From Planctomycetaceae bacterium (GTDB lineage Bacteria; Planctomycetota; Planctomycetia; Planctomycetales; Planctomycetaceae), in assembly GCA_021732845.1 (NCBI GenBank), contig JAKFUF010000043.1:1207-42111 (forward strand): DNA of 40,905 nt. Direction: 5' to 3'. This document shows positions 1,078-40,332 of this stretch, piece after piece (position 1 is the first letter of the stretch; the number at the start of each line of letters is the position of its first letter). The notes beneath the pieces were generated by a model, which saw only the letters and a program-made list of their open reading frames with translations, did not search any database and was not told where the DNA came from. The position numbers and the translations under genes are program-made.

Positions 1078-1579
1078 GCCCCTCTGCGAGAGGCACGGCG
1101 GTCCGGCGATGGCAAGTACCGATTCAACCGACAGGCCTGAACTCGGTGGGGAGCCACCTAAGAGTGTCGCTTGGCGAAAGGCATTTTCCCAGACGCATTT
1201 TCCCAGACGCTGGACAATGGACGGAAGTTTGGGTAAAGAAATCTGTCGAACCAAATCAGGGAGTTTGCGCGGCAGGCTAACGATTGGAGTGCCCGTTTCC
1301 GTTGCGTTCCGTGACCCGAGCCCTAAAATCTGGGTTTCCGGTCTGAGTTGGTTCGTCCGCGAGGTCCGGAGTAATCTCCGTGGCTTCGCTGCTGTTTCGG
1401 CCGCGGCTGGAGACTTGGGAGAAGTCCGGGGGCGTGGCATTCAACACCGTGCGTCGGATCGGCGTACTAGGGGATGAATGCCTTCGGGAGGTCAGCATCG
1501 TGGATTCGTCTCATCCATTGGGGTGACCGAACCACCACCGGGATGTGTACCGCTTGGAAATCGTGGAATGGGAGTGGTG
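1078..1579. other. Non-coding stretch between repeat array and ABC operon
   Basis: No convincing gene is visible on either strand. A remnant of the repeat unit, TGAACTCGGTGGGG, survives at 1138-1151, so this part looks like a decayed array copy. A perfect 14-bp direct repeat, GCATTTTCCCAGAC, occupies 1181-1194 and 1195-1208. The remainder should include the promoter of the downstream operon, but no clear -35/-10 pair was recognised. Confidence 0.5.
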
Positions 1580-2311
1580 ATGGCGAAAGAAAGTCCGATG
1601 ATGATCGAGGCGCGGGGACTCAGCAAATATTACGGCGAGTTCGCGGCGATTGACAATGTGACATTTTCCATCCCCTCCGGGAAGGTTGTCGCCTTTCTTG
1701 GCCCCAACGGTGCCGGAAAATCGACGACCATGAAGATCCTCACCGGCTTCCTGAACCCCTCCAAAGGCCAGGCGCTGATTGGGGGCTTCGATGTCCATGA
1801 GAATCGGATCGCCGCCGCCAAGCTGATCGGATACCTGCCGGAAAACGGGCCGCTCTATCTGGACATGTCACCCAAGGCCCTGTTGCGGCATGTGGGCGAA
1901 GTCCGGGGCCTGTCACAGAGCTACATTCGCGAACGCCTCGACTATGTCGCCGTCCGCTGTGACCTGACTCACGTCTGGGGCAAGCCCACCGGCAAACTGT
2001 CGCGCGGCTACCGCCAGCGCGTCGGGATGGCCCAGGCCCTGTTGCACGACCCCAAAGTGCTGATTCTCGACGAGCCGACCTCCGGTCTCGATCCGAACCA
2101 GGTTCATGACGTGCGTGAGCTGCTCAAAAGCCTCGGAGAAACGAAGACGGTCATACTTTCAACGCACATTCTGCAGGAAGTCGAGGCCGTTTGCAGCCGC
2201 GTGATCCTGATCAACGAAGGGCGGATCGCCCTCGACGGGACCGTGGCGGATCTGGGTGGGCCGACCCACGACATGGAAGGCCGGTTCCGGCAGTTGACCC
2301 GCGTCCGGTAG
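1580..2311 (+). CDS. ABC transporter ATP-binding protein (GldA/ABC-2 type)
   Basis: Cytoplasmic ATPase of an ABC-2 type exporter, 243 residues. Motifs are complete: Walker A GPNGAGKST at 41-49, signature LSRGYRQR at 140-147, Walker B plus D-loop VLILDEPTSGLDP at 160-172, and the switch histidine in LSTHIL at 196. The start chosen is the ATG at 1580, which has GGGAG five bases upstream; in-frame starts from 1478 and 1568 lack this. The next gene encodes a fused membrane subunit and GldG-like protein, so this ATPase most likely energises that complex. The set resembles the gliding-associated GldA/GldF/GldG transporter of Bacteroidetes, but in planctomycetes the substrate is unknown and gliding should not be assumed. 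Confidence 0.93.
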   Translation: MAKESPMMIEARGLSKYYGEFAAIDNVTFSIPSGKVVAFLGPNGAGKSTTMKILTGFLNPSKGQALIGGFDVHENRIAAAKLIGYLPENGPLYLDMSPKALLRHVGEVRGLSQSYIRERLDYVAVRCDLTHVWGKPTGKLSRGYRQRVGMAQALLHDPKVLILDEPTSGLDPNQVHDVRELLKSLGETKTVILSTHILQEVEAVCSRVILINEGRIALDGTVADLGGPTHDMEGRFRQLTRVR

Positions 2312-2441
2312 GCGGCGATCGATCAGCGGGTGGCTCAGAGAGAGCGACTCAAAATCGGCGGTGGCGGCAAAATACAATTGTCAGAGTCTTTCTTCCCGCG
2401 TGGCTCAAGGCGGGAATGGACATAAATTCAGGAGTTCGTGG

Positions 2442-5258
2442 ATGTCTGTGATTCTGGCCGTTTTCAAACGGAACCTCGTGAGTTACTTCTCGGGGGTGAT
2501 CGGCTACCTGTTCGTTGCCGTCTTCCTCGGTGCCAGCGCCTATCTGGCGTTCAGCGAACAGTTCTTTGCCAACAATCTGGCAAACCTCGACCAACTGAAT
2601 CTGTGGTTTCCCGCTCTGCTGGTCGTGCTGATCCCCGCGATCACCATGTCGAGCTGGGCCGATGAGCGCCGGTTTGGCACCGACGAACTGCTGTTCACCC
2701 TGCCCGCCACCGATCTGCAGATTCTTATCGGGAAGTACCTGGCGGTTCTGGGTGTGTACTCCATCGCGCTTTTGTTCAACGCCGTCGGCCTGTCGCTGGC
2801 TCTGTTGGTGATGGGCAGCCCAGACTGGTCTCTGTTGTTGACAGTCTTCATCGGTTTCTGGTTCGCGGGAGCCGCACTGCTTGCGGCAGGCTTGGTCGCT
2901 TCAGCCGCCAGCAAGAGTCCAACCGTCGCCTACCTGCTGGGGCTGTTTGTGGGCGGCGTCCCGGTGATGCTGTATTACGGCAGCACCGCGTTTCTCGGCT
3001 ATAGTGTGGCCGGCAACCTTCGAACCTTCGGTTTGGGCATCCTCTCCTTCTCGGGGATTGTCTACTTCGTCTCGCTGATCGCGCTGTTTCTGTTCGTCAA
3101 CTATGTGTTGATCACCGGGCGGTTCTGGTCCACCGGCCCCGGGCGCGCCGCGCTGCTGGTCGGCTTGTTCGTGGCGATGATCGCCCTGCCGGAAGGCCTG
3201 CTGCTGTGGCTTGGACTGAACAGTGCCGCCTCCTGGGCACCGCTGGCGATCCGTGTGGGGGTCATTCTGGTCCTGGCGTTGGGGCTGTTTCTCGGAACGG
3301 CGATCAAGGGGCGCGAGATTCGTTCCGGTTTGCTGTTCGCGGTCGAGTTCGTGGCGCTGGCGATCACCTTCGTCTCGGTGAATCAGGCCGCCAACAGCTA
3401 CAACATGGATGTCGACCTGACCTCGGAAAAGCTCTACAGCCTCTCATCCACGACGGATACGACGCTCTCGAGCCTCAAGTCCGACCAGGAAGTCATCATT
3501 CGGGCCTTCATTTCGCCGGAAGTGCCCAAGCAGTTCGCTCCCCAGCGCAACACGCTGCTGGGTCTGCTGCGACAGTATGACAGTTACAACAATGTGATCG
3601 TGCAGATCTCCGAAACGCGGCAGTTCACTCCAGAAGCAACCGAAGCGCAGCGGTTTGGAATCGACGCCCAGGTGCGCGAGGCCGAACAGGCAGGCAGAAA
3701 GGTCGTTTTACCCTTCTATCTCGGCGTGGCAATCACCTCGGGCGACTCCGAAAATGTCCTGCCCTTCTTTGACCTGGGAACGCCGGTTGAATACGAACTG
3801 ACGAGCGCGATCTATGCTCTGACCCGGCCCAAGCGGAAGACGCTGGGCATCCTGAAGACCGATGCGAAGGTCACCGGTGGCCTCGACATGAGCACCTTCC
3901 AGCAGAGTCCGGAATGGCCAATTGTCGCCGAACTGAAGAAACTTTACGACGTGAAGGAAGTCGAACCGAAGGATCTGGCCAACTCGGATTTCGCCACCCT
4001 GCTGGCGTTCATGCCATCGACGCTCACCGACCAGGAACTGCCGTTCCTGGTGGCCTACGTCAAGTCTGGTCATCCCACGCTGATTGTCGATGACCCGTAT
4101 CCGTTCTGGAATCCAGACCTGGCACCAAGCTCCGAGAAGCCGCGCCAGGGGGGAATGTTCGGGGGCGGACCGCCTCCCACACCCAAAGCCGACGGCGGTC
4201 GGCTGACGCCGCTCCTGGATGTGCTGGAGGTCGCTTGGGATTCGGGCCGGACCGTCTGGGATCCGTACAATCCGCAGGTCAAGCTGGCGGACGTCTTTCG
4301 GCGGTTTGACGCGGTGTTTATCGACAAGAACAGCGGTGGCTCAATGCCCTTCGGCGACAAAAGCCCCATCAGCAACGGCCTGCAGCAGGTGCTGATGCTC
4401 TATCCCGGGCAGTTGCAGCCACGGCAGGGTGCCCGCACGACGTTTACCAACCTGCTGCGGACCGGCAAGGAAAGCTACACCCGCGAATGGGATGAGATCG
4501 TGGAACAGGGCGGTGGCTTCATGGGACCCCGCACGCAGTTGAAGACCGACCTGGAGCGCAAAGAACCAGAGATGTTTGGCGACAATCCCGGTGAGATTGT
4601 GACGGCGGCTCAAATCAAGGGGCCCAAGGCCGACAGCAAACCGGTCAACGTGGTCTTCATCACCGACTTGGACATGATCTCCAAGCCATTCTTCGACATC
4701 CGCGACCAGCAGTTCGAAAACCTCGATTTTGACAATATTGCGTTCGTGCTGAACGCCGTGGATGTGCTCGCTGGTGTGGACACGCTGGTTCCGCTGCGGA
4801 TTCGTCGCGGGCAGCACCGCACGCTGAAGCGGGTCGAAAACAAGCGCCGCGAAGTGGAACGCAAGGAAATCGAAGACCGGACGCGGGCCGAAGACAAGGC
4901 CAAGAAGAAGAATGAGGAAGCCACGCAGAACTTTGTGGAGATGGCGAACAAGATTCGCGAAGACAAATCCCTGGACCGGCAGCAGCAGGAGATCAAGCTG
5001 GCCCAGCTCGCCGAGAATCAAACCCGGCAGATGGCCGTGATCGAAGCGCAGATCAAGGATGAGACCAACCAGGAGATTCGCGTCTCCCGCGACCGCACCC
5101 AGGCTGAAATTCTGCGGCTGGAAAGCCAGTTCCGCTGGGCCTCGGTGCTCCTGATTCCGCTGCCGGCCATCCTGCTTGGCCTCGTCGTGCTGTCCGTCCG
5201 CATGGCGGATGAAAACCGCGCGGCGGTGCCCGAACGGCTGCTGAAGAAGCACAAGTAG
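2442..5258 (+). CDS. Fused ABC-2 permease (GldF-like) and GldG-like auxiliary protein
   Basis: Inner-membrane protein of 938 residues. The first ~330 residues have many hydrophobic segments and look like an ABC-2 permease of the GldF/NosY type. Residues ~335-790 look like the periplasmic GldG-type ABC_transp_aux region, starting near YNMDVDLTSEKLYSLS. A charged coiled coil (~795-900, rich in K, R, E and Q) and a last membrane helix (~905-925) follow. In Bacteroidetes GldF and GldG are separate proteins; here they are one chain. The start is the ATG at 2442 with GGAG seven bases upstream; the frame is open from 2361, but that start lacks a site. The gene lies 130 bp after the ATPase gene and 299 bp before the DUF4340 gene, probably one operon. 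Confidence 0.9.
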   Translation: MSVILAVFKRNLVSYFSGVIGYLFVAVFLGASAYLAFSEQFFANNLANLDQLNLWFPALLVVLIPAITMSSWADERRFGTDELLFTLPATDLQILIGKYLAVLGVYSIALLFNAVGLSLALLVMGSPDWSLLLTVFIGFWFAGAALLAAGLVASAASKSPTVAYLLGLFVGGVPVMLYYGSTAFLGYSVAGNLRTFGLGILSFSGIVYFVSLIALFLFVNYVLITGRFWSTGPGRAALLVGLFVAMIALPEGLLLWLGLNSAASWAPLAIRVGVILVLALGLFLGTAIKGREIRSGLLFAVEFVALAITFVSVNQAANSYNMDVDLTSEKLYSLSSTTDTTLSSLKSDQEVIIRAFISPEVPKQFAPQRNTLLGLLRQYDSYNNVIVQISETRQFTPEATEAQRFGIDAQVREAEQAGRKVVLPFYLGVAITSGDSENVLPFFDLGTPVEYELTSAIYALTRPKRKTLGILKTDAKVTGGLDMSTFQQSPEWPIVAELKKLYDVKEVEPKDLANSDFATLLAFMPSTLTDQELPFLVAYVKSGHPTLIVDDPYPFWNPDLAPSSEKPRQGGMFGGGPPPTPKADGGRLTPLLDVLEVAWDSGRTVWDPYNPQVKLADVFRRFDAVFIDKNSGGSMPFGDKSPISNGLQQVLMLYPGQLQPRQGARTTFTNLLRTGKESYTREWDEIVEQGGGFMGPRTQLKTDLERKEPEMFGDNPGEIVTAAQIKGPKADSKPVNVVFITDLDMISKPFFDIRDQQFENLDFDNIAFVLNAVDVLAGVDTLVPLRIRRGQHRTLKRVENKRREVERKEIEDRTRAEDKAKKKNEEATQNFVEMANKIREDKSLDRQQQEIKLAQLAENQTRQMAVIEAQIKDETNQEIRVSRDRTQAEILRLESQFRWASVLLIPLPAILLGLVVLSVRMADENRAAVPERLLKKHK

Positions 5259-5279
5259 AACGTCCAAAACGCTGAAGGA

Positions 5280-5422
5280 ATTTCAGATTTCAAATTTCAC
5301 AGTCCGTGGAGTGCGTCGAACTGGCGGCCATGTTGTTGAAAACACACCGTGATCAAATCGGCTTCCCTCGCATTCCGTCCGATTTCGAAAAACACTTTAC
5401 TGTGAAATTTGAGATCTGAAAT
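5280..5422. repeat. AT-rich inverted repeat with 24-bp arms in the intergenic gap
   Basis: The left arm at 5280-5303 (ATTTCAGATTT then CAAATTTCACAGT) is the reverse complement of 5399-5422 with one mismatch; 95 bp lie between the arms. It lies between the permease and DUF4340 genes, in sequence far more AT-rich than its surroundings. A related string, TTTTACTGTGAAATTCT, occurs at about 16001-16017, and CGAATCTCGAATTTCACGG near 40153-40171. This suggests a dispersed element. Whether it acts as transcript structure or is a mobile-element relic cannot be told. Confidence 0.75.
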
Positions 5423-5557
5423 TTGAAATTCCACTTGACCGCGCGGCGTTCCAAAGACCATTGACGATACCAAGATTTTCCTCCGACCCTGTCGGCCACG
5501 ATCGATCTGACTTCACAGCCTGCCGTTAGATGGCGTGCTGAATCCATGGAGGCAACT

Positions 5558-7795
5558 ATGAACGACGCAATTCGCAGTGCTGTGTTTGTCGGTGTCGCGG
5601 CGGTTTCGCTGCTCACCGCATGGATCACCAGCACGCCCACCACCCGCACCGCCAAGAACGAGCTGGGTGAGACTGGAAAAATATTCTATCCGGAGTTCCA
5701 GGATCCCACCGTTCCGGACAGCATCAAAGTCACGATGGTGGACGAAGGCAAGGCGCTCGAAAAGAACTTCGAAGTGCAGGTGAAGGATGGACAATGGAGC
5801 ATTCCGTCGCACCACGGTTACCCGGCCGATGGCAAGGACCGGCTGGCCAAGACGGCCGCCTCAGTCATCAATTTGAAGCGTGAGGAACTCCGCAGCCGCG
5901 CCGTTGCCGATCATGAGAAGCTCGGAGTGTTGGACCCTGCCAAGGCGACCAAAAGTGCGCTGAAAGGGTATGGTCGGCGAATCACACTGTCGGAAAAGGG
6001 TTCCCCGGTGATGGATCTGATCATCGGGAACGAATTGGAGAAGCGCCCGGGATTCTATTTCGTCCGCAAACCGGAGGAGACGGCCACGTATGTCGCCAAG
6101 GTCAATGTCGATCTCTCCACGAAATTCAGCGACTGGATTGAGCCGGATCTGCTCAAAATTGATCGCGACCAGTTGACCGCCGTGAAGGTGGACAACTATT
6201 CGATCGACGAAGAGCGCGGAGTGCGAATTCCCGGCGATGTCAGCATCCTCACGCGGGACAAGTCTTCCGATCCTTGGATCCTCAAGGAGATCGACAAGGA
6301 CAAGGAAGAGGTTGAACCCAGCCGCGTGGCGGGGATCGTCAACACACTGGACGATCTCAAGCTGATCGGCGTCCGCCGCAAACCGGCCCAACTGCGTGAC
6401 TATCTTCAAGGCAAAAGCGAGGGAATTGGTCGCGACGACGCTCTGTCACTGCAGTCCCGTGGTTTCTATGTGACGCAGCGGGGACAGTTGCTGGCCAATG
6501 AAGGCGAGATGTCGGTCGTCACCAACAAGGGGATTGTCTACGACCTGCAGTTCGGCGAAATCTTCACGGGCGACGATCTGGAACTCGAAACTGGCCTGAC
6601 CCCCAAGGACAAGAAGCCCGACGAGAAGAAGCCCGCCGCCGGCGCTGCTCCGGCAGCCACGGGGAAGTCGGGACGATATCTGTTTGTCCGCGCCGCATTT
6701 GACGAAGACCAGATGCCGGGCAAGCCGGTCAAGCCTGTGAAGCAGAAGGTTCCCGCCGCTGAACCTGCGGCAGATGCGCCCAAGGAGGCACCCAAGGAAG
6801 ACGCGCCTAAAGCCGACGCGCCGAAGGAAGAGGCTCCCAAAGAGGAGCCGAAGCCTGAAGCCGCACCAAAGAAAGAGGAAGAGCCCAAGCCTGAGGCGAA
6901 AGCCGAAGAGGCCAAGCCAGCCGACACCAAGCCCGAAGCCGGTTGCGAAGATCCAAAACCAGAAGCAGCACCTGAAGCCCCCAAGGCGGAAGAGGCTCCG
7001 AAGGCTGCAGAGGCCCCCAAAGCCGAGGAAGCTCCGAAGGCCACTGAAGCTCCGAAGGCCACTGAAGCTCCGAAGGCCACTGAAGCTCCGAAGGCCACTG
7101 AAGCTCCGAAGGCCACTGAAGCTCCGAAGGCCACTGAGCCACCCAAAGCTGCTGAAGCTCCCGCTGCCGCTACACCGCCCGCCGCAGCCAAGCCACCGGT
7201 CAAGACTGCGGAAGATCTGGAAAAGGAGTATCAGGCGGCCCTGAAGCAGTACGAGACCGATCTTGCCGCATGGAAGACCAAGGTCACCGAAGCCACGAAA
7301 GAGGCCGAAACGTTGAATGACCGCTTCGCGGAATGGTACTACGTGATCTCGGCGGACGACTTTGAAAAGCTGCACGTGGCCCGCAAGGATTTGGTGAAGG
7401 CCAAAGCACCCGCGGCGGCAGCACCAGCGGGTGCCGCAGTGCCGGGTGCCCCTGGGACACTGCCAGCCGCAACGGAGCCACCACCGGCCGTGAAGCCTGA
7501 GGCCGCGAAGCCCGCCGAGAAGACGGATGCGGAAAAGCCCGCCGAGAAGACGGATGCGGAAAAGGCAGATGCTGACAAACCAGAGCCACCGAAGGCAGAA
7601 GCACCCAAGCCGGAAGCCCCGAAGGACGAGAAGCCAACGGCGCCTGCCAAGGCGGAAGCAGAGGCGAAGCCCGCTGACGCGAAGCCTGAGGCTCCCAAAG
7701 AAGAGGCTCCCAAGACCGACGAGAAGCCAGAAGCCGCCGCGGCTGAAGAGAAGCCCCAAGCAGAAGCACCGAAAGAGGCTCCCAAGCCCGAATAG
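5558..7795 (+). CDS. DUF4340 protein with long Lys/Pro/Ala/Glu-rich insert
   Basis: 745 residues starting at the ATG at 5558, with GGAGG five bases upstream; an ATG at 5546 is less well placed. An N-terminal hydrophobic helix (~5-22) anchors the protein, and residues ~25-390 match DUF4340, a family usually encoded beside GldA/GldFG-type transporters and thought to act outside the membrane. The family-typical ending is displaced: after [14 protein letters not shown] (~370-383) comes about 150 residues of K/P/A/E-rich sequence. Then a short helix and [17 protein letters not shown] (~589-605) resume the domain. A second K/P/A/E tail fills ~616-745. Six exact KATEAP-type hexapeptides lie at about 492-527. 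The likely role is an accessory subunit of the upstream exporter; the substrate is unknown. Confidence 0.85.
7031..7138 (+). repeat. Six tandem copies of an 18-bp unit inside the DUF4340 gene
   Basis: The unit GCTCCGAAGGCCACTGAA occurs at 7031, 7049, 7067, 7085, 7103 and 7121. The copies are nearly identical at the DNA level and only the last one changes, at its end. They encode APKATE repeats in the extended linker. Near-identity of the DNA points to recent slippage or recombination, so copy number probably varies between strains. Confidence 0.95.
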
Positions 7796-10427: not shown

Positions 10428-10527
10428 TGCACGAATCAGTTCCCTCCACGCTGGATTCCGCATAGCATTGAACGTGAAGCCTGCCACCCAATGATTGACG
10501 CCCGACATCAAGCCACCGGAGCAGCCC

Positions 10528-12813
10528 ATGCGGTCGCAACTCTTTCCGAGAGATTTCGTCCTGTGCCTCGGAATTGCCTTTGGATGCGCCGGTCTGTTGG
10601 GGCGCGCGGCCCTCGCTGAAGACGCTCCGAAACCAACGGCCACCCCGCCTGCGGCACCTGTCGCGGCGGCCACCGACGAAGCCGAGCAGTCGGTCGAGAA
10701 ACTGACGGAAGTCAGCCGCAAGGCCGTGGTGGTGATCCGTGTGGCGGGACGGGATGGCCGGCAGCAGGCGCTTGGCAGCGGTGTGATTGTCGACAGGAAC
10801 GGCCTGATCGCCACGAATCTGCACGTGATCGGCGAAGGCCGGCCGATTTCCGTTGAACTGGCTGACAAGCGGAAGTTCGACGCGACGGTCGTGGAGGCGT
10901 TTGACCGGCCGTGGGATCTGGCGCTGATCCGGATCGACGCCAAGGACCTGCCCACCCTTCCACTGGGCGATTCAGACACGCTCAAGCAGGGGCAGTCGAT
11001 CGTGGCGATCGGCAACCCCCTGGGGTTGACGCACAGCGTGGTGGCCGGCGTGGTTTCCGGGACGCGCGAGATCGACGGCCGCTCGATGATCCAACTGGCG
11101 ATTCCCATTGAACCCGGCAACAGCGGCGGGCCGCTGCTCGACCGGCAGGGCCGCGTTCACGGCCTGCTGACGATGAAATCCGCCGTCACTGAAAACCTGG
11201 GCTTTGCCGTCCCCGTCAATGCCCTTAAGCCCTTGATGGCGAAGCCCAACCCGACCGTCATGTCCCGGTGGCTCACCATCGGGGCGCTCGACGCCGAGGA
11301 CTGGACGCCATTGTTCGGCGCGAAATGGCGGCAGCGGGCGGGACGGATTCAAGTGAGTGGTCTGGGCTCCGGTTTTGGCGGCCGTTCGCTCTGCCTCTCC
11401 AGCCAGGCTCCTCCCACAGCGCCGTTTGAAGTCTCGGTCGCGGTCAAGCTCGAGAGTGAAGACGGGGCGGCCGGGCTGGTGTTTTGCTCCAACGGAAACG
11501 ATGTGCACTATGGGTTCTATCCCACCGCCGGCAAGCTGCGGCTGTCCCGCTTCGATGGTCCCGATGTCTTCAGTTGGAAGGTGCTGGTCGAGCAACCCAG
11601 CGAACACTACCGCCCCAAAGACTGGAACCTGCTCAAGGTGAAGTTTGAACCGGGAAAGATTCAGTGCTTCGTCAATGGCCAATTGGCTCTGGAGTCCACC
11701 GACGGCGAACTCAGCACGGGCAAGGTTGGCCTCGCGAAGTTTCGTGACACCGAAGCGGAATTCCGTGGCTTCCAAATGGGCCACGAACTGGAAAGCGGAC
11801 TCACGGCGGACCTGACCAGCCAGATCGCGGCGCTACTGCCTGCCGGAAGTCTGAACAATGTTTCGGCGGAAGTGACCGCCAAACTGGCCGGGCAGGGGGC
11901 CGGTGCCAGCGCGGTGCTGCGGGAACAGGCGCTGCAGTTGGAACAACGCGCGGCGCTTCTGCGAAGCCTCGCGCTGTCAGTCCACCAAAAGCGGGTCCAT
12001 GGCGAACTGACGACCCTCTTTGCGAGACCTGAAGCAGAAGTTGACCTGTTTCAAGCAGCACTGCTCGTGGCTCGTCTCGACAATGAAGAGGTCGATGTCG
12101 CCGCGTATCAAGCCGACCTGCAACGGCTCGTGCGGCAGATCAAGGAGAAGCTGGCGGCGGACGCCGATGACCTGTCCAAACTGGCAGCGCTCCAAAGATT
12201 CCTGTTCGAAGAACAGGGGTTTCATGGCAGCCGTGGCGACTACTACCACAAGTCCAACAGCTACGTGAACGAAGTCCTGGACGATCGCGAGGGTCTGCCC
12301 ATCACGCTGGCCGTGGTGTACATGGAGCTGGCCCGGCATCTGGGGGTAAGGGTGGTGGGCGTGGGGTTCCCCGGGCACTTCATGGTCCGGCATGAAACGG
12401 AAGCCACGGAGAAGGCGAAGCTGCAGGAGCTGCCGCTGATCGACCCGTTTGAAAACGGCAAGATTGTCACTCCCGACCAGACGATGGCGGCCGCGCTGCG
12501 GGCCACCGGCCGACCATTGCGCGATTCCGACCTGGCGGCGATCACCAAGCGGGCGATCATCACCCGCATGCTGCATAACCTGCTCGGCCTGGCACAGGAA
12601 GCGCAGGACCTGCCGGGTATGCTCCGCTATCTGGATGCCATTCTGCTGTTGTCTCCGGACCTGGGTCAGGACCGATTCATGCGGGCCGCTGTTCATTATC
12701 AGTTGAACCACAAGCCCGAATCGCTCGTGGATGTCGACTGGATTTTGGAGCACCGGCCGGAAGGGGTCGACCTGAACCGGCTGCAGCAGTTGCGCGACGA
12801 ACTGACGCGGTAA
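10528..12813 (+). CDS. Secreted trypsin-like protease fused to LamG-like and SirB1-like domains
   Basis: 761 residues starting at the ATG at 10528, with GGAG six bases upstream; an earlier TTG is less likely. A signal peptide (~1-32, ending ALA-ED) is followed by an S1C/HtrA-type protease. SGVIVDRNGLIATNLHV carries His99, WDLALIRID carries Asp130 and PGNSGGPLL carries Ser199. No PDZ domain was recognised; instead residues ~250-415 resemble a concanavalin/LamG or DUF1080 beta-sandwich. The C-terminal ~230 residues match SirB1/Transglut_core2, including LFEEQGFHG, NSYVNEVLDDREGLPITLAVVYMELARHLG and GVGFPGHFMVRHE. The fusion suggests a periplasmic or surface protein; the substrate is unknown. 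The next gene begins 39 bp downstream on the same strand. Confidence 0.88.
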   Translation: MRSQLFPRDFVLCLGIAFGCAGLLGRAALAEDAPKPTATPPAAPVAAATDEAEQSVEKLTEVSRKAVVVIRVAGRDGRQQALGSGVIVDRNGLIATNLHVIGEGRPISVELADKRKFDATVVEAFDRPWDLALIRIDAKDLPTLPLGDSDTLKQGQSIVAIGNPLGLTHSVVAGVVSGTREIDGRSMIQLAIPIEPGNSGGPLLDRQGRVHGLLTMKSAVTENLGFAVPVNALKPLMAKPNPTVMSRWLTIGALDAEDWTPLFGAKWRQRAGRIQVSGLGSGFGGRSLCLSSQAPPTAPFEVSVAVKLESEDGAAGLVFCSNGNDVHYGFYPTAGKLRLSRFDGPDVFSWKVLVEQPSEHYRPKDWNLLKVKFEPGKIQCFVNGQLALESTDGELSTGKVGLAKFRDTEAEFRGFQMGHELESGLTADLTSQIAALLPAGSLNNVSAEVTAKLAGQGAGASAVLREQALQLEQRAALLRSLALSVHQKRVHGELTTLFARPEAEVDLFQAALLVARLDNEEVDVAAYQADLQRLVRQIKEKLAADADDLSKLAALQRFLFEEQGFHGSRGDYYHKSNSYVNEVLDDREGLPITLAVVYMELARHLGVRVVGVGFPGHFMVRHETEATEKAKLQELPLIDPFENGKIVTPDQTMAAALRATGRPLRDSDLAAITKRAIITRMLHNLLGLAQEAQDLPGMLRYLDAILLLSPDLGQDRFMRAAVHYQLNHKPESLVDVDWILEHRPEGVDLNRLQQLRDELTR

Positions 12814-12852: not shown

Positions 12853-14868
12853 ATGCGGGACGGGCTGTGCTTGCTGCTGCCTCTGGTGTTCTTGCTTGTT
12901 CAGCCAATGGCTGTCGCGGAAGACGGCATTCATGTCGGACCGCCGGCGACCGCGGCCGCCGAAGTTGGCTGGCCATTCCTGCGCGGGGCGAATTTCGACG
13001 GTCGGTCGTCCGAGACAGGTCTGGCCGAGACCTGGCCCGCAGCCGGGCCACCAGTGCTGTGGTCGCTGGAGTTGGGACAGGGCTACTCCGGTTTCGTCGC
13101 TCAGGGCGAACGGGTCTACACCCAGCGGCAGTCGCTGACCGGACAGACTGTGGTCTGCCTGCATGCCGAAACGGGAGCCACCCTTTGGGAGTACCGCTAC
13201 GACTTTCCCTTCGAAGCGTCGGGGTTGTACCCCGGTCCGCGTTCAACGCCAACGCTGGCGCGGGGAAAAGTCTATTTTGCCACTCCGAAGGCCGAAGTCG
13301 GCTGCCTGAGCGAAGCTGGAAAACTGCTGTGGCAGGTGGACTTGGCGGACCGCTTCAAGATTGCGGACCCCGGCTTTGGATACGCCTGCTCGCCCGTGGT
13401 GTTCGACGGCAAGGTCCTGCTGCCCGTGGGAGGGGCGGGGGCGAGCATGGTGGCCCTGAACGCGGAGACTGGCGACACCGTGTGGCAGGCCGGCGACGAA
13501 AAGGCCAGCTATACGCCGGTCTATCCCATCAAGCTGGGTGACCGATGGCAGGCGGTCGGCTATTTGGAAAACGCGCTGGTCGGACATGATCTGGCCACTG
13601 GCCGACTGCTGTGGCAACTCAAGATGTCACATGGTTATGACGAGCATGCGGCCTGGCCCATCTATCAAGAGCCTCATCTCTGGATCAGCGCTCCCTTCCA
13701 GGTTGGCTGCCGGCTGTTGAAGGTTCCTGAGCCACGGGCAGATGGGAAACTCAGCAAGATTGAAAGTGTCTATAGCGAACGGATCCTGTCCAACGACATC
13801 GCCTCCAGCGTGCTGGTCGACGGTCATCTCTACGGATTCGATCTTCGCGATCCTCAGGCCAAATCGCATCGGGGCTCCCGCGGACAGTTTCGATGCATCG
13901 AGTTCATGACTGGCAAGGAATGCTGGGCCACGACCGAAACGGGACATGCCTCGGCCATTGTTGCCGAGGGAAAATTGATTCTGCTGAACGACACCGGCGA
14001 CCTGCTGCTGGCCCGCGCCTCTCCCGAGAAATTCGAACTGCTCGCCAAGTGTTCCGTCCTTTCGGGAGAGATTGGCTGGACTCCGCCGATGCTGCATCGC
14101 CGCCGGTTGTATGTCCGCAATCAGACGCGTGCGGTCTGTGTCTATCTGGGGAAGCCTGAAGACCTGGAGCGTCCGGTCGATGCACGACCGCTGCTCACAG
14201 TGAAGGATCTGCCGCGGCGATCGTACTACGACATGGCGCTGCTCTTGGGCGTCGAGCCCGAGTATTCCATGGATGTGCCGAGCAGCGCATCGTTCTGGAA
14301 CTGGTATCGCAACAGCATGGCGATTCTGGCAATCGCCTCCCTCGTCGCGTTTGTGCCACAGGTGTTCCTCTGGCCGCGCTTTCCGGCGGCGACACTCTTC
14401 CGCCTGCTGGCCTTTGCTGGCGGTGCCTGTGGCACGACACTTCTGAGCCTGCACTTTGGCGAGTTCACCTTCACCTGGGCCGTGCCATTGTTTGTGGCAT
14501 TGGATCTGGTGGTCAGTTTTCTCAGCGTCGGACAACTGAAACTTCGACAGGAAAAAGATTCGCAGTTGTCGCAACAATCCGGCCGGTCATCCGCCTGGAT
14601 GCGGCGGCTGGCAGACCTCGCATTTCTCGCCGTGGCTTTCGCCTACTACTGGCTGTGCCACCGCCTGAGCCTCGTCACCCAGTGGTGCTTCCTCTTTGGA
14701 CTCGCCCCGGCGCTGCCTTTGTTGTGGGCCGGCTACTGGCTCCAAATTCGCGTCCGCTGGCGGTTGACCGCCGCACTGATCATCACGGCGGCCCGCCTGT
14801 TGGGGTTCACGGCGATGTATGGCACGACCGTATTGGGCATCTGGCTGAAGTACGGGATCCCGTTATAG
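12853..14868 (+). CDS. PQQ-type beta-propeller protein with polytopic C-terminal membrane domain
   Basis: 671 residues. A signal peptide (~1-22) is followed by WPFLRGANFDGRS, the usual opening of planctomycete PQQ-like/outer-membrane-assembly-type propellers. Blade motifs follow, such as HAETGATLWEY, SEAGKLLWQV, NAETGDTVWQA and LATGRLLWQL. The propeller region ends near residue 455. Residues ~485-671 contain about six hydrophobic helices, so the propeller is tethered to the inner membrane. Catalytic quinoprotein residues cannot be assigned, and a scaffold or binding role is as likely as dehydrogenase activity. It may be cotranscribed with the protease fusion 39 bp upstream. No strong ribosome binding site precedes the ATG at 12853. 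Confidence 0.85.
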   Translation: MRDGLCLLLPLVFLLVQPMAVAEDGIHVGPPATAAAEVGWPFLRGANFDGRSSETGLAETWPAAGPPVLWSLELGQGYSGFVAQGERVYTQRQSLTGQTVVCLHAETGATLWEYRYDFPFEASGLYPGPRSTPTLARGKVYFATPKAEVGCLSEAGKLLWQVDLADRFKIADPGFGYACSPVVFDGKVLLPVGGAGASMVALNAETGDTVWQAGDEKASYTPVYPIKLGDRWQAVGYLENALVGHDLATGRLLWQLKMSHGYDEHAAWPIYQEPHLWISAPFQVGCRLLKVPEPRADGKLSKIESVYSERILSNDIASSVLVDGHLYGFDLRDPQAKSHRGSRGQFRCIEFMTGKECWATTETGHASAIVAEGKLILLNDTGDLLLARASPEKFELLAKCSVLSGEIGWTPPMLHRRRLYVRNQTRAVCVYLGKPEDLERPVDARPLLTVKDLPRRSYYDMALLLGVEPEYSMDVPSSASFWNWYRNSMAILAIASLVAFVPQVFLWPRFPAATLFRLLAFAGGACGTTLLSLHFGEFTFTWAVPLFVALDLVVSFLSVGQLKLRQEKDSQLSQQSGRSSAWMRRLADLAFLAVAFAYYWLCHRLSLVTQWCFLFGLAPALPLLWAGYWLQIRVRWRLTAALIITAARLLGFTAMYGTTVLGIWLKYGIPL

Positions 14869-20710: not shown

Positions 20711-23700
20711 CTAGCGTTTGGCCGTCGTGAACTGACGCGGATCCCACAGGGAAATCGTGGTGTCGTAGCTGCCGGTGGCGATTCGCTGGCCATCGGGGGT
20801 GAACTGCAGTGTCCAGGCTGTTGAACGAAGGGGGATCTGAGAAACAACCGTCTTGCTGTCGACGTCGACGATTTTCACGGCAGTCGCATCAACTTGTTCC
20901 AACCACGCGAGCTGCCGGGAATCGGGCGAGAACTGCAGGGCCGCAACCTGCACAGGAAGCGTGATCGTTGAGACGTGATCCCCCACCTGAAAGCCTTCCT
21001 CTCCCACCCGGTGACTCAGCACAGCCGTGGCTGTGTCTGGGGTGGTCTGGGTGATCCTGATGCTGCCGAGATGTTTCCGTGGCTTTCCGGTGGGTGAAGT
21101 TCGATAGACGGTCAGCGCATGACCTTCGCGCATTCCATCGTCGTGCCCCAGCGAAATGGACAGAATCTGTGAATCGCCGGGATTTTTTGGCGGCGTCACG
21201 CTGATGATGTCACCCTCCGCGATAGGTACTCCCCCCAGCCGCCACTCAGTCTCTTTCTTGAATGTCGAGAGTTCATGGAGGTTGACCTGCGTGTGACGGT
21301 CACCGGTCTCGTCCACGACCACCTGGGAGACCGCCAGCCATCGACCATCCGGAGAGACCGCGATCTGCTCCACACCAGGAACCTGTTCCGTGCGGCGGAT
21401 CTGGCCGTTTGCCGTGTTGACCTCGTAGAGCTTGGATTCAAACAAGATGAACAGCGAACGGGCGTCTTCCGAGAACAGGCCGCTCAGCAGTTGCGGGCGC
21501 GGGTAGGCCTGCGGAGTGCTGTAGTTCGGCAGGGCAATGGAATGTTTCGACACCGGCGTGCCGTTCGCGTTCCACCAGCGGAGTTCCATGTCGTCGCCCC
21601 AGGTGACGAAGCGGCTGCCATCGGCACTGTATTTCGCCGCCCGCGCCCCGCCCCGGTCGCCGTGTCCTGGCCGGGTCGTCAGACGCTTGAACGTCGCGAG
21701 ATCCCAGATGCCGATGGTGTTGTCGAACATGTTGGCCACAAACGAATGGCCATCGCGTGAGACCGCCACGTCTCCCGCCTCTCCCGGCAGGCCAATCGAG
21801 TCACGCAGCTTGCCGGTCTTCACGTCCCACAGGCAAAGCGATTTGTCAGCCGCAGTGGAGACCATCAGCCCCTCGCCGGCAAATCGAATGGACCGGACTG
21901 GGTCACCGTGTCCGTGGCTCGCGCCGCCGACCAGTTTGCGCTCCGGCAAGTTGTAGACTTCAATGGCAGCACTGGAGCCGGTGCAAGCGAGCCACTGGCC
22001 GTCGCGGCTGATGGTCACCGAGCGGGACGTTCCCGCCGGCAGCGTGCTGGTCAGTTTCCGAGAATCGACATCCCACAGCTCGACGCCACTGTTGGCCGGG
22101 GCGGCGAGCAACTGACTGTCGGGCGAGAAGGTCAGGCCGCCATCCGGATGCATGGAACTGCCCGATTTGAACTGGGCTGCCAACGAACCATCCTGGCCGT
22201 TCCACAACGAGATCCCATCTTGCTCATTGGCACCGGTGGCAAACCATTTGCCGTTAGGAGCAAAGCATACCGTCAGGTGCCGCAGGGGATTTCCTGGCTG
22301 CAACTGCTGACTTGGCGGACCGGCCTCAGCCAATTTCCAGAAGTAGGACCGTTGCATCCCGGTCAACACGACAGTCTCGCCACCGGGAGAATACGCGGCC
22401 TCCCAAAGTTCGGCACCTTCGAGGGTCTCCTGCCGGATCTGGGTCCCCTGAGCCACGTCCCATAGTCGAATATCACCCTGCGACGTTGCAGCCAGCAAAG
22501 CAGTGTCATCAGGTTTGAAGGCCAGGCACCGCAAGTCTCCAAATTTTCCCTTCCATATCATTGACCGTTTGAGGGCCGCCGTGCGCGCGTCGAGTACGAC
22601 CAGACGATAAGTTGTTCCTTCCGGTGCCACAGGCATCTCGAACATGCCGATGGCCGCGAGCTTTCCGCTGGGAGAGATTGCCACGGATTGCACGTAGCCA
22701 TTGCCCAACCCAAGTCTCTGATGATCCACGACGTATCCGGTTTGGCGGTGCATCACAAAAGCTCGCTCATCCGCCTTGCCCCAGATCCACTCGCCGTCCT
22801 CGGCAAAGGCCACCGTTCTCCACCATCCGGTAGCCTTGAACCGCGCCGAGCCAAGTTTCTGCAGCATCCCTTTGGGCAAAGGCTGGCCGTCGGCGTCGAG
22901 AGGAACATCGGCCCCGGCGACTACTGCCGGCGGAACCACCAGCGGGCTGATGAAGGCGGCCGCCACGGCAGGAGCCTGGGGTGCGGAGGCATTCACCGCC
23001 GCTACCGTGTTATTGTCAGTAGCCGCTTTCGCCACCTTCCGCCCCTGCGGCGTCAGCACAAGACCAGTCATCGATTCCTTCAGCTCAACTTCCACCACCA
23101 CATCGGACCCCTTGGGGTCGCGGCGGGCGTAGGTATGCGACACTTGGTGCGGATGCGGTCCGAAGTTGGAAATGAACCGAAGTTTGCCAGGTGCAAGGCC
23201 TGTCAAATGAAACGTCAGCTTGTCGCCGTCCACATTCGTCTCCAACGTTTTGGAGACGGCGTAGATCCAAGTGGCATCCGGGTTGTCGGACTTCATCTCC
23301 AGGGGCTGATCCCATTCGGCAGCAAACCGCTTGAGTTCTTCCGCGGTGCCATGAATCTCGCCGGACACGTCCAGCGGCGGTCCGAGGGTGATCGTTTCCA
23401 GTTCCTTGCCGGCCCGCACTGGACCGATGATGCGTGATGGAAACGGTGATTTTTCGCCATTCGGACCCGGCGGAGCTTCGACACAGAAGTAATAGAGAGC
23501 GTCGCCCAAGTCTTTGTAATACGGGTCGACTTTTTGCAGCGAGTCAAACTTCAACAACCCCTCTTCGCCGGTCACGGCCCACACCGGCCCTTCAAGGCCA
23601 TGCATGGGAATCGGGCCGGCAGACGCTTTGGCCGACGTTTTGTTGAAGAACCGCCCTTTGGCCCCCACCAGGGGCTTGCCGTCGACCGCCGAGAGCACCT

Positions 23701-26605
23701 TGAAGCACGAGGGCGTCGCCACTTTCAACTCGATCTGTTTCACCTCATCGGGTTTGAGCTTCACTTCGTAAAAGATCGCTTCTTCGTAGCCGTCGGCGCG
23801 AACCGTGATCATCACGGGGCGGAGTGTGCAGTCGGGAACATCGACGAACCGGCCCTTGAGCGGCTTGTCGATCAGGTCATCGCGTTTGACCTCGCCCCGC
23901 ACCGTCACCACGCCGCTTTCCACGCCGGGTCCCTTCTTCCCGACAAACTCCAGCTTCCCGGTGAATGTCGGTGGCTTCGCCCGCGCGTCGTCCTCAGCCG
24001 TCCGCGCCCGCAGCACCAGCGGCACCGCACCCGTTTCCAGCTCCTTCTGCCAGTCCCCCTTGAGCGGGAAGGTGATGTTCCCCTTGTCGTCCTTGGACTG
24101 CATCCCGTTGAACCGCACCGTGTAGCTCACGGTGTATTGGCCCGGCTGCTCCAGTTGGTTGATCGCCGGCGACAGCACCTGCTGTTCGGAAATCTCGCCC
24201 GGCTGCAGCGTCCAGCGGACCATGATCGGCACGCCGCTGAACCAGGTGCCCTGCACAGGAACCTCCTTCCCCGCCGCATCCTTCACATGGGCATAGTCAT
24301 CCTGCCGGCTGGTCTCGCTGGCAAAGGTGATCGGCTTGTCGCTGACGTTCTTGATGTGAAAGTGGACGCTCATTCCGGCCTTGATGGGAATTCCCGGCCC
24401 TGCTGATGGATCTCCCACGACTGAATTTGGAACGCGGATCTCCATCGCGGCTTGGAGGCCATCGACGACTGGCCCCCAGACGAGATCTGCGACCTCAACC
24501 TGGATCACATAGGGCTCATGATCCTCGTCAATCACGGTCACCTTGGTAGTTCCCGGCGCGACTCCAGTGAACCGAATCCGGCTGGTTTCCGTCCCGATCT
24601 GCGTGACCACGATGACTTTCGGATCGTGTCCATCAACCAGGCGTATTTTCTTGGGCAATCGCAAGATCCGGCTGTTGCGAACGCTCAACTTGAATTTGGA
24701 GTTCTTCTCTGCTGGCACGAAGTCCAATTCCCGCGATGTGTCGACAGTCACAATCGAATTCACTTCCACTGGCACGCTGTTTGATACCGCTTCATGCGAC
24801 CAGGCGTTGCCCTGCGCCTTGTCCGGCCAGTGTTTCTTGATCAGTGCCAGCGCCGTCTCTTCCGGCCCGTGATACCGCACCTTCACGTTGTATTTGCCGG
24901 GGGGCAATTGGTAGTCCATTGGCGCGTGGAACTTCGATGGCCGCAGCAGGACTTTCAGGTTGCCGCCGGGAGGCACGACATGCGCAGACGCGCCATCAAC
25001 CAGCATTGCATCGCGTTCAAACACCCGCTTCGCCCGTGGCAGCGGCTTGCCGTCTTTGTCAGTGAATTCGAACTCAAAGAAGTGCGGGGCGAAGAACTCG
25101 GTGTTCAGTTTGCCGGCTGCCGTAGGGTACGAGTCGCCATACCTTACGCCAAGCAGAGTGACTGGCTTATCACTCACGTTTTTCAATTCGACGAGGAATG
25201 TCGCCTCGTTGGTGTTGGCGAATTCCCGAACAGCCCGCGATGCGTCCGGCTCTTCGTCATCCGTGGCTGCCGAAACCGCCACCAACCGGCAGCGCAGGCC
25301 GTGGGCCTCCGGGCCGAATTCGTCCATCACGTCCGCGGCTGCGTTCTGTGGTTTGATGTCATTCTCATTCACGTTCGCTCCCGCGTCCTTGCTCGGCTTC
25401 TCCTTCGAAGCGTCTTGTTTCTGCTCCTGTTTGGGTTCATCGGCCATGGAGTTCAACCCATTGTGTGTGACCGTCCAAGCCATCAGGACGCACAGCATTC
25501 CCAGCAGCAGCACCGGCCAGCGATGCAGGAACCGCACATGGGAATCGCTCGAATCTCCCAGCAGCCGGGCAATCCGCTGCCGCAGCGTCGAGGGTTTGCC
25601 GCCGGTCGCCAGCAGACTCACGGCGGCAATCGCCCCCTGTCGCCTCGCCCCGCCGTGGCTTAACTCAGCCACGCGCAGCAGCGACTCGGCGTAGTCCAGC
25701 GGGATTGCGCCGCAGGCGACGACCAAGTCGTCGCAGCAGTTCTCCCGCTCCACACGAATCCGCCCGCTCACCCACCACAGCGCCGGGTGGAAGAACAGCA
25801 CCGATTCCACCACCCGTTGGAACAGGTTCACCAGATGATCGTAGCGCCGCAGATGGGCCAGCTCATGGGCCAGGATCGCCTCGATCTGCGCTGGAGCCAG
25901 GCCGGCGACGAGAGCCACGGGCAGCAGAATGGTGGGTCGCAGGATGCCAATCACGGTGGGCACCGTGACCCGTTCGCAATACGCCAGGGACGGAATGAAC
26001 GCCAGCCCCAGCGACTCGGCCTGCTCCTGCAATGTGACCAACAACCGGACATCCCACACCGGAGTGGCGCTACGGCGCAGCCGCCACCCACCCCACAGCC
26101 CCGCCATCAGCCGCAGAAACATCACCGCCACCCCGGATAGATAAAGATTCGTCAACATTCTGGCGATGTTCTGCCAGTCGATCTCAGCCCGCACAGTGGT
26201 TTGTGGCGTGCTGGCAGGGATTGAAGGGACAACGGCCTGTGGCGACGGCCCGAATCGGGGGGTCGGAACGGGTCCGCTGGGCGCAGTTCCCACGATGGCG
26301 GTCGGAATCGCAGTTGGCACCGTCACCACTGGTGGCGAATTCCTGGGCGCGGGGGCGGATGTTGCCACCCGTGGAGCCGGCAGGTCGGCGACAAAGACGG
26401 AAAACGTGGCCAGCGGACAAAGCATCATCAGGGCCAGGGTGGCCACATGCGCGAGGTAACGCCCGTTGGCGGTGCGAATCTGCCGGGCGACCAGCGCGCC
26501 GAGCACGGCGACCAGTGCCCCCTGCCAGAGGAAGTGACCCATGGAAAGCACCACGGCGGCGGAGATGTCGCGGCCGGGTGCAACGCTGTCGAAGAACGCG
26601 TTCAT
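20711..26605 (-). CDS. BlaR1-like M56 peptidase with giant extension and C-terminal WD40 propeller
   Basis: 1964 residues. The first ~390 resemble BlaR1/MecR1: hydrophobic segments near 15-40, 50-74 and 150-172, an M56 zinc site LAHELAHLRRYDH (HELAH at 247-251) with ENCCDDLV (Glu288), and a membrane segment at ~365-385. In BlaR1 a penicillin-binding sensor follows; here it is replaced. Residues ~617-708 resemble the beta domain of pilus/secretin N-termini (RLPKKIRLVDGHDPKV..GVAPGTTKVTVID). Residues ~900-1100 include carboxypeptidase-regulatory-like repeats, and ~1250-1964 form WD40 blades (LWDV, IWDLATFKRL, LWDPRQF). The ATG at 26605 has AAGGG seven bases upstream. It lies 127 bp after a BlaI-type repressor gene; a sensing protease that inactivates the repressor is inferred. 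The ligand is unknown. Confidence 0.88.
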   Translation of the reverse strand: MNAFFDSVAPGRDISAAVVLSMGHFLWQGALVAVLGALVARQIRTANGRYLAHVATLALMMLCPLATFSVFVADLPAPRVATSAPAPRNSPPVVTVPTAIPTAIVGTAPSGPVPTPRFGPSPQAVVPSIPASTPQTTVRAEIDWQNIARMLTNLYLSGVAVMFLRLMAGLWGGWRLRRSATPVWDVRLLVTLQEQAESLGLAFIPSLAYCERVTVPTVIGILRPTILLPVALVAGLAPAQIEAILAHELAHLRRYDHLVNLFQRVVESVLFFHPALWWVSGRIRVERENCCDDLVVACGAIPLDYAESLLRVAELSHGGARRQGAIAAVSLLATGGKPSTLRQRIARLLGDSSDSHVRFLHRWPVLLLGMLCVLMAWTVTHNGLNSMADEPKQEQKQDASKEKPSKDAGANVNENDIKPQNAAADVMDEFGPEAHGLRCRLVAVSAATDDEEPDASRAVREFANTNEATFLVELKNVSDKPVTLLGVRYGDSYPTAAGKLNTEFFAPHFFEFEFTDKDGKPLPRAKRVFERDAMLVDGASAHVVPPGGNLKVLLRPSKFHAPMDYQLPPGKYNVKVRYHGPEETALALIKKHWPDKAQGNAWSHEAVSNSVPVEVNSIVTVDTSRELDFVPAEKNSKFKLSVRNSRILRLPKKIRLVDGHDPKVIVVTQIGTETSRIRFTGVAPGTTKVTVIDEDHEPYVIQVEVADLVWGPVVDGLQAAMEIRVPNSVVGDPSAGPGIPIKAGMSVHFHIKNVSDKPITFASETSRQDDYAHVKDAAGKEVPVQGTWFSGVPIMVRWTLQPGEISEQQVLSPAINQLEQPGQYTVSYTVRFNGMQSKDDKGNITFPLKGDWQKELETGAVPLVLRARTAEDDARAKPPTFTGKLEFVGKKGPGVESGVVTVRGEVKRDDLIDKPLKGRFVDVPDCTLRPVMITVRADGYEEAIFYEVKLKPDEVKQIELKVATPSCFKVLSAVDGKPLVGAKGRFFNKTSAKASAGPIPMHGLEGPVWAVTGEEGLLKFDSLQKVDPYYKDLGDALYYFCVEAPPGPNGEKSPFPSRIIGPVRAGKELETITLGPPLDVSGEIHGTAEELKRFAAEWDQPLEMKSDNPDATWIYAVSKTLETNVDGDKLTFHLTGLAPGKLRFISNFGPHPHQVSHTYARRDPKGSDVVVEVELKESMTGLVLTPQGRKVAKAATDNNTVAAVNASAPQAPAVAAAFISPLVVPPAVVAGADVPLDADGQPLPKGMLQKLGSARFKATGWWRTVAFAEDGEWIWGKADERAFVMHRQTGYVVDHQRLGLGNGYVQSVAISPSGKLAAIGMFEMPVAPEGTTYRLVVLDARTAALKRSMIWKGKFGDLRCLAFKPDDTALLAATSQGDIRLWDVAQGTQIRQETLEGAELWEAAYSPGGETVVLTGMQRSYFWKLAEAGPPSQQLQPGNPLRHLTVCFAPNGKWFATGANEQDGISLWNGQDGSLAAQFKSGSSMHPDGGLTFSPDSQLLAAPANSGVELWDVDSRKLTSTLPAGTSRSVTISRDGQWLACTGSSAAIEVYNLPERKLVGGASHGHGDPVRSIRFAGEGLMVSTAADKSLCLWDVKTGKLRDSIGLPGEAGDVAVSRDGHSFVANMFDNTIGIWDLATFKRLTTRPGHGDRGGARAAKYSADGSRFVTWGDDMELRWWNANGTPVSKHSIALPNYSTPQAYPRPQLLSGLFSEDARSLFILFESKLYEVNTANGQIRRTEQVPGVEQIAVSPDGRWLAVSQVVVDETGDRHTQVNLHELSTFKKETEWRLGGVPIAEGDIISVTPPKNPGDSQILSISLGHDDGMREGHALTVYRTSPTGKPRKHLGSIRITQTTPDTATAVLSHRVGEEGFQVGDHVSTITLPVQVAALQFSPDSRQLAWLEQVDATAVKIVDVDSKTVVSQIPLRSTAWTLQFTPDGQRIATGSYDTTISLWDPRQFTTAKR

Positions 26606-28654: not shown

Positions 28655-29188
28655 TCAACCTGCGCCGTGAGTTCCGACAGTCTCAGGCATCATTGGGTCG
28701 CGGAAGGCGATTTTCATCGCCCGTGCCGCAGACCGTTTGCTGACCACTCCCGCATCGATGAACTTGCCCATCCGTTCTTCCGCCAACCGCTTCACCCAGG
28801 CCGCCTCGGAAGTGCGCCCCTGTCGCGCCAGCACGGCAAAGTAGCAGGCATAGGTCGACAAGACAGTCATCTGATCGTGAGTCCGTTCAAGACGTGTCAG
28901 ATGTACAAATGCGTGCCTGAGGCTGCCCCACCTGCCATGCATCTGTGCGAGGCTCATGCGGATGTTGAGAAGGCACGCGGTCACGTGCTGCAGTTCATCA
29001 TCCTTGGCGATTTTCGCAAAGTCGCCAAGGATGTTTGCGAGTTTGCGGGAGGCGGACTCGTAGGTCATGGCAGGCTTGCCGGGCTGTTGGCGGGACTCCA
29101 CCATGGAGCGCAAAGCGGCCAGGTGAACCGCATTGATGGCCTCGCCGGCCTGCTCCATGGCGTTGAGTTCCCTTTTCACGCGCTTCAT
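28655..29188 (-). CDS. Small helical protein coupled to the CE15 gene, unknown function
   Basis: 177 residues. The ATG at 29188 overlaps the TGA of the upstream esterase gene (ATGA), a classic sign of translational coupling, which decides the start. The frame is open further upstream (to 29449), but that part is antisense-frame of the esterase. The sequence is mostly alpha-helical with Leu/Ala-rich amphipathic repeats (KLANILGDFAKIAKDDELQHV, HAFVHLTRLERTHDQM). It has no signal peptide, membrane segment or recognisable catalytic motif. The family is not recognised. Its pairing with a secreted esterase has no evident explanation. Confidence 0.6.
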   Translation of the reverse strand: MKRVKRELNAMEQAGEAINAVHLAALRSMVESRQQPGKPAMTYESASRKLANILGDFAKIAKDDELQHVTACLLNIRMSLAQMHGRWGSLRHAFVHLTRLERTHDQMTVLSTYACYFAVLARQGRTSEAAWVKRLAEERMGKFIDAGVVSKRSAARAMKIAFRDPMMPETVGTHGAG

Positions 29189-40003: not shown

Positions 40004-40332
40004 GGACACCCTCGTCCCGTTGAAAGCGGTCACCCTTCCCAAATTCTGAAACACCCATCCGCAGCCAAGGTGTTGCGCGAATTCTGCTTGGTGAAGTGTA
40101 CCGTGCCGGGTGCCGCGACCCAATCACGAACGAGCATCAAATCTCGGATCTATCTCGAATCTCGAATTTCACGGAATTCCGACAACGCTGTTTCGCTTTA
40201 ATTCCAGCGCCACTAACTAACCATTACCCCGGCACGAAAGAAACGCACGACTGAATCAACTTGGGAACCATCATGCTTCGTCGAGGGGCGTGTGGCTCGT
40301 GGTGCGACTTTTCGTGTGAGGACGACTCCGAC
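40004..40332. other. Upstream region of the DUF4175-like gene
   Basis: No gene is seen. It should contain the promoter of the large minus-strand gene, but no clear hexamers were identified. The run CGAATCTCGAATTTCACGG near 40153-40171 resembles the AT-rich inverted-repeat family at 5280-5422. Confidence 0.4.

Follow-up and report, generated by a model that had tools for sequence, protein, structure and literature searches.

What does a SirB1 domain do when it follows, in one chain, a protease that begins like a secreted protein? Stand-alone SirB1 is cytoplasmic. At the locus described here, the domain ends a single polypeptide of secreted type, in which an HtrA-like protease and a sugar-binding-like domain precede the SirB1 unit. 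The gene lies in a 40,905-nucleotide stretch from a Planctomycetaceae bacterium, which was analysed as a whole and is called the window. A three-part fusion in one polypeptide had been proposed in a preliminary description of this DNA, and it was borne out by Pfam, NCBIfam and the predicted fold of the central sandwich. No description of a protease-sandwich-SirB1 fusion was found in the literature searched, with most subscription papers falling outside that search, and the accessible text of PMC8195603 contains no such fusion.

The fusion gene and its protease

The open reading frame of 761 amino acids spans 10528 (ATG) to 12813 (stop codon included) on the + strand, to which all coordinates of the fusion refer, and internal stops are absent. 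A GGAG at 10518..10521, read from the sequence, is a putative ribosome-binding site for this ATG, and the GC content at codon positions 1, 2 and 3 is 0.698, 0.429 and 0.765. A promoter and terminator scan around the gene gave no signal above chance. The encoded protein starts with a signal-peptide-like N-terminus (residues 1-30, 10528..10617), made of a hydrophobic stretch followed by ALA-E. The signal peptide expected from the first reading of the sequence is supported by our own heuristic (a hydrophobic stretch plus a small-x-small motif), which detects such a start in 48 of the 50 fusion rows with at least 45 amino acids ahead of the protease; three more rows are truncated by the end of a contig.

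The trypsin-like domain occupies residues 60-240 approximately (10705..11247) and is matched by Trypsin_2 at residues 83-213 (Pfam, E 5.1e-32); its best relatives of solved structure by sequence are DegP-like (best E 8.4e-32). The triad previously listed for it is complete, consisting of His99 in LHV (10822..10824; 52/52 fusion rows), Asp130 in DLA (10915..10917; 52/52) and Ser199 in GNSGGP (11122..11124; 53/53), and is invariant wherever the 53 distinct fusion rows are readable. Trypsin-like domain, His/Asp/Ser triad and GNSGG motif are thus all present, as in family S1C. NCBIfam models of DegP/HtrA type also match the protease, the Do/DegP model TIGR02037 reaching 159.6 bits against a cut-off of 416.2; scores under whole-protein cut-offs, here and in the SirB1 part, are expected because the domain order is new.

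The fusion therefore shares with the HtrA/Deg proteins (DegP, DegQ, DegS, HhoA, HTRA2) the trypsin-like fold as judged by sequence, the triad, the GNSGGP motif and the secretion-type start, but it carries a CBM66-like sandwich and a SirB1/TPR arm in place of PDZ, which is usual in these proteases without being universal. The missing PDZ domain, remarked on from the outset, was confirmed by the lack of any PDZ match in the fusion at E<=1 in Pfam, whereas the same library detects PDZ in five of seven further S1C proteins encoded in this genome. PDZ was not detected by Pfam in the S1C paralogues at L006 and L008; the latter (L008:1003-3483, - strand) joins WD40 repeats to a trypsin-like domain. 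Searches for a defence or plasmid context were answered by the protease domain as well. The PADLOC model RT-Protease_XI (E 2.4e-15) covers residues 51-237 only, a shared protease domain, and a defence system was rejected. Plasmid carriage was likewise rejected: 104 plasmid records match, none over more than 80% of the query, and those among the matches listed cover the protease domain only. E. coli DNA gave no match to the fusion.

Spread, conservation and surroundings

The spread of the fusion was followed with residues 275-761 (sandwich plus SirB1) as query in 59 genomes, the window's own included. This part is matched nearly end to end in 33 of them, and a protease in the same frame was confirmed in 32 of the 33 (29 of 30 loci, together with genomes G004, G017 and G029), the exception being L013 (G012), which starts at a contig end. 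In a collection of named genomes, which has five sequences in common with the related set, 29 of the 31 loci returned are fusions, including some truncated where a contig stops; 18 are labelled Planctomycetota or below, 10 Verrucomicrobiota or below and one simply "bacterium". The two others are a SirB1 protein alone (L068) and a protease piece (L069). A wider sample, drawn evenly, gave the fusion in at least 14 of 199 genomes from the phylum of the window, 10 of those 14 belonging to the window's family, and in at least 2 of 115 genomes from the phylum that includes G204, the Verrucomicrobia genome in which L059 lies. These counts, which include the centre genome, are lower bounds because only the best 5 (199-genome set) or 10 (115-genome set) candidates per genome were scored. 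As for PF13369 itself, 95 of 149 genomes of the phylum carry it, as do 2 of 14 control genomes (E. coli, Caulobacter). By these sequence counts, the fusion is common close to the window's genome and sporadic farther away.

This recurrence also settles a doubt raised with the preliminary description, that a stop codon present in relatives might be missing here. The fusion is conserved across many genomes, so a lost stop codon was ruled out. An artefact of any kind, whether missed stop, frameshift or assembly join, has a negligible chance given that the three-part order is identical in independent genomes of two phyla and that no internal stop was found.

Conservation was read from an alignment of 53 fusion rows, from which copies of the window's protein, identical sequences and matched spans below 480 residues (L013 and the non-fusion loci) were excluded. 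Mean column identity is 0.70 in the protease, 0.66 in the sandwich and 0.63 in the transglutaminase-like core, followed by 0.48 in the TPR, 0.476 in the long helix, 0.34 in the linker and 0.28 in the N-terminus. The spacing from S199 to W248 measures 50 residues throughout the 53 rows, and that from F415 to L512 varies between 89 and 110. The constant first spacing and the varying second therefore suggest that protease and sandwich behave as a single unit, to which a tether of variable length attaches SirB1. The tether corresponds to residues 421-498 (11788..12021), delimited by the AlphaFold model and column identity, where a linker with pLDDT of about 67-74 precedes a long helix (model residues 219-259 in the model of residues 240-761). 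In a tree of 60 hand-picked rows made by a quick method, 29 fusion rows and one divergent copy form a single clade (SH-aLRT 99), divided into a verrucomicrobial side (88) and a planctomycetal side (91).

The genes around the fusion are hardly shared. Among 46 loci used for comparison, the gene picker recovered the fusion in 45 (it was missed in L062), and the largest neighbour family is common to just 6 of these 45, five of them in one verrucomicrobial group (L059, L060, L061, L063, L066). In that group, a gene of 418-424 amino acids lies 13 nt upstream of the fusion; no Pfam or NCBIfam match was found in the two members scanned (L059, L060). As no neighbour family exceeds 6 of 45 loci, the neighbours point to no common pathway, and the fusion protein is therefore probably a self-contained unit. 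A glycosyltransferase-like gene stands directly downstream of the fusion in five loci, mostly Schlesneria. In the window, the fusion is followed on its own strand, after some 40 nt, by the gene of a PQQ/BamB-like propeller protein (12853-14868, + strand); relatives of this protein occur near the fusion in four other loci, on varying sides. Elsewhere in the window, an ABC transporter ATPase, an ABC_transp_aux/DUF7088 membrane protein and a DUF4340 protein are encoded consecutively (1478-7795, + strand), and the - strand carries a 1964-aa ORF (20711-26605) with a BlaR1-type M56 peptidase, a T2SS/T3SS pilus N-terminal domain and WD40 propellers, an ORF matching the fungal-type glucuronyl esterase family GCE_fung (29185-30462, E 1.5e-38), and a sigma-70 family (ECF-like) gene (33719-34336) adjoining a 1848-aa ORF (34577-40123) that has no Pfam match at E<=1e-4.

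The sandwich and the SirB1/TPR arm

By sequence, the sandwich (residues 241-420, 11248..11787) is weakly recognized. The family 3keto-disac_hyd (PF06439) matches it at E 2.4e-5 with 24.9 bits, short of the cut-off of 26.8 (28.0 bits are reached in the related protein of L039), and Laminin_G_3 matches at E 0.038 (Pfam). The AlphaFold model of residues 240-761 has a pLDDT of 89.6 and a pTM of 0.64, and because of the latter it does not fix the placing of the sandwich relative to SirB1. In this model, the sandwich was aligned by VIA with CBM66 structures 4b1m/4azz at Z 22.2 (rmsd 1.9-2.0 over 151 residues, 20% identity), the next-best fold reaching Z 18.5. The sandwich noticed earlier was therefore real as a fold, but its LamG-like label gives way to a CBM66 fold, as predicted by the model and as known from the levanase of Bacillus subtilis, from which the fusion differs in attaching the sandwich to a protease. 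Known CBM66 members are reported to bind fructan ends or lyase-treated xanthan (PMC11002231); a CBM66-like sandwich in BT1760 is described, in the accessible part of its report, with no ligand density (PMC6560043). Four residues of the fusion sandwich, H327, Y331, W350 and R406, are invariant in 53 of 53 rows and may be structural rather than ligand-related. Because the sandwich is conserved almost like the protease and kept at a constant distance from it, glycan binding by the predicted domain can be called possible and is put no higher.

The SirB1 part comprises a helical lead-in with the transglutaminase-like core (residues 499-680, 12022..12567) and TPR-like C-terminal helices (residues 681-761, 12568..12810). 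Transglut_core2 (PF13369) matches residues 526-682 at E 2.5e-44, its 150.9 bits passing the cut-off of 23.5, and TPR_9 matches residues 687-755 at E 6.3e-8 with 33.0 bits, slightly below the cut-off of 35 (both Pfam). The C-terminal TPR of the SirB1 family is thus present, as a TPR_9 match and as TPR-like helices in a confident model. The NCBIfam SirB1 model PRK10941 aligns with residues 505-745 over its positions 12-247 of 269 (E 2.2e-18), its equivalog cut-off of 391 bits not being reached by a score of 66.7. The conserved residues of the family, in which the first reading saw a point to check, are retained: the fusions show D-R-E-G-[LI]-P-[IL]-[TS]-L, then P-x-H-F and D-[PV]-F, and so share with E. 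coli SirB1 and the domain of eukaryotic FBXO21 the core plus TPR and the R-x-G-x-P, P-x-H-F and D-P/V-F motifs. Unlike these, the fusions place the domain behind a secretion-type protease instead of leaving it to stand alone, and FHGSR and E588 are specific to them.

The idea that this part could be a second working enzyme was not supported. At the transglutaminase nucleophile position, Pro591 (12298..12300) is found in 52 of 52 fusion rows, next to the retained triad positions His617 (12376..12378; 50/52) and Asp639 (12442..12444; 52/52), so that the Cys-His-Asp triad of catalytic transglutaminase-like enzymes is incomplete, with Pro replacing Cys. No common Cys column was found anywhere in the SirB1 part of the 52 rows. 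In 41 non-fusion relatives, a non-random set hand-picked from PF13369 matches plus L068 and including the near copies L091/L092, the P591 column is occupied by Pro in 22 cases, by Cys in 18 and by His in one. All 18 Cys-type relatives have His at the 617 column, which identifies P591 as the nucleophile position. PF13369 thus appears, from these alignments, to unite two sorts under one Pfam family, a Cys sort that is probably catalytic and a Pro sort to which SirB1 proper and the fusions belong. Having lost the active residue, the SirB1 part of the fusion is unlikely to be a second enzyme. Several Cys-type proteins have long TPR arrays (L081, L082 and L089 were scanned). In the tree, eight Cys-type rows form a separate clade (100), which midpoint rooting nests among the Pro types, so the tree leaves the direction of the Cys/Pro change unsettled. 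The divergent fusion copy in that tree (L090:1127-3406, + strand) is the second one in the Roseibacillus genome of L057; it has kept the protease triad and lost the P591 and H617 motifs, so that the P591/H617 pocket is not always required. Transglut_core2 also occurs fused with a protein kinase domain (L087:337-2289, - strand) and in a terpene-cyclase-like, HEAT and TPR protein (L089:276-3650, + strand).

No solved SirB1 structure was found by sequence, a single-sequence search returning none and a profile search TPR-type proteins only, and the arm was modelled by AlphaFold (residues 495-761; pLDDT 95.0, pTM 0.91). Foldseek returned mostly TPR proteins, with zero PDB matches at E<=0.001; menin was among the matches listed, at E 0.023-0.031 and TM 0.40-0.48. 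After re-alignment by VIA, menin occupied ranks 1-39 with Z 11.9-13.9 over 212-239 residues (rmsd 3.4-5.7, identity 7-12%), followed by a TPR domain at Z 8.5, and streptococcal TglA scored Z 8.3 over 159 residues. Helical models can reach Z 13-14 through common arrangement alone, which places the menin match at the edge of reliability; in its favour, a single family fills the top ranks, and both core and TPR are covered. By sequence, the menin family (PF05053) was absent among Pfam matches at E<=1 and menin among 60 PDB sequences at E<=10 (profile A2 search). The predicted SirB1/TPR shape thus resembles menin, although by Foldseek alone the likeness is weak.

In published descriptions, menin is a scaffold whose deep pocket binds peptides (PMC10318531, PMC13256885). 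Independently of the models made here, a survey of the papain-like superfamily treats menin, Transglut_core and PF13369 in one section, considers human menin, which lacks a catalytic Cys, as probably inactive and a scaffold, and terms the transglutaminase-like domain of FBXO21 inactive (PMC10318531). The fusion arm and menin have in common the loss of the nucleophile and perhaps, as far as the prediction goes, the transglutaminase-like plus TPR arrangement, but menin is larger, has no sequence match to the fusion, is described as solely eukaryotic with a role in transcription regulation, and carries Ser at the Cys position where the fusion has Pro (PMC10318531). The lost nucleophile and menin-like shape together suggest that the SirB1 part is a binding module, and in the fusion the arm probably binds partners only.

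A proposed mechanism and its alternatives

From the architecture, the conservation, the lost nucleophile and the predicted folds, we infer that this is a protease of Deg type whose sandwich and inactive SirB1/TPR arm take over from PDZ and choose or gate protein substrates, a tentative reading whose chance we place slightly short of even. The PDZ-less S1C protease would be exported and would cut proteins outside the cytoplasm. The sandwich, rigid in the usual place of PDZ, would position the protease on a glycan or pack against it, and the arm would have a menin-like groove that grips a peptide or a partner protein; partner binding could then feed substrates to the protease or switch it on. 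More doubtful is a narrower version, in which the Pro type of SirB1/Transglut_core2 is a bacterial counterpart of menin and would act here, next to a sandwich that takes the position of PDZ, as substrate receptor for a secreted protease of Deg type. A recurring proximity of SirB1 domains to protein breakdown is no more than a hint: FBXO21 serves as a subunit of a ubiquitin ligase (PMC10318531, PMC4887211), and in the accessible text of a plastid Clp study, SirB1 is named in the legend of a domain figure, where the protein that bears it is not stated (PMC8889267). Against the SirB1 part as the receptor in FBXO21, a C-terminal fragment with YccV sufficed to pull down ASK1 (PMC4887211).

The protease might instead be anchored to a surface glycan, much as the first reading of the sequence had it, the sandwich holding an exopolysaccharide or cell-wall sugar and the SirB1/TPR part serving as a secondary anchor or spacer. 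The clear margin by which CBM66 is the best fold, the sugars bound by its known members, the glycosyltransferase-like gene downstream in five loci and the four invariant residues speak for this anchoring; it is nonetheless unlikely, as a binding module that can be exchanged would not be expected to show conservation near that of the protease and a fixed spacing, the invariant residues may have a structural role, BT1760 offers the same fold without an observed ligand, and the conserved SirB1 core is left unexplained. Allosteric control is general among HtrA proteases, and here a flexible linker of varying length joins two rigid halves; both would suit an arm that acts as an autoinhibitory lid, blocking or distorting the active site of the protease and lifted by a ligand or a stress signal, a reading that we regard as rather improbable. 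It is a good deal less probable still that the SirB1 part works as a peptidase, amidase or transglutaminase through another residue: His617 and Asp639 are retained, but neither Cys nor Ser stands at the nucleophile position and the fusions share no Cys column.

If the reading of the arm as a menin-like substrate receptor is true, it would represent a new route of substrate choice in the HtrA family, to which the fusion would add a PDZ-free architecture, and a first functional handle on PF13369. This family ranges from E. coli to human FBXO21, and its function was termed unknown in a 2023 survey (PMC10318531). Because the chemistry of the protease to which the fusion ties it is understood, the role of SirB1 could be probed in assays on a single soluble protein, which could help reveal the function of the SirB1 family.
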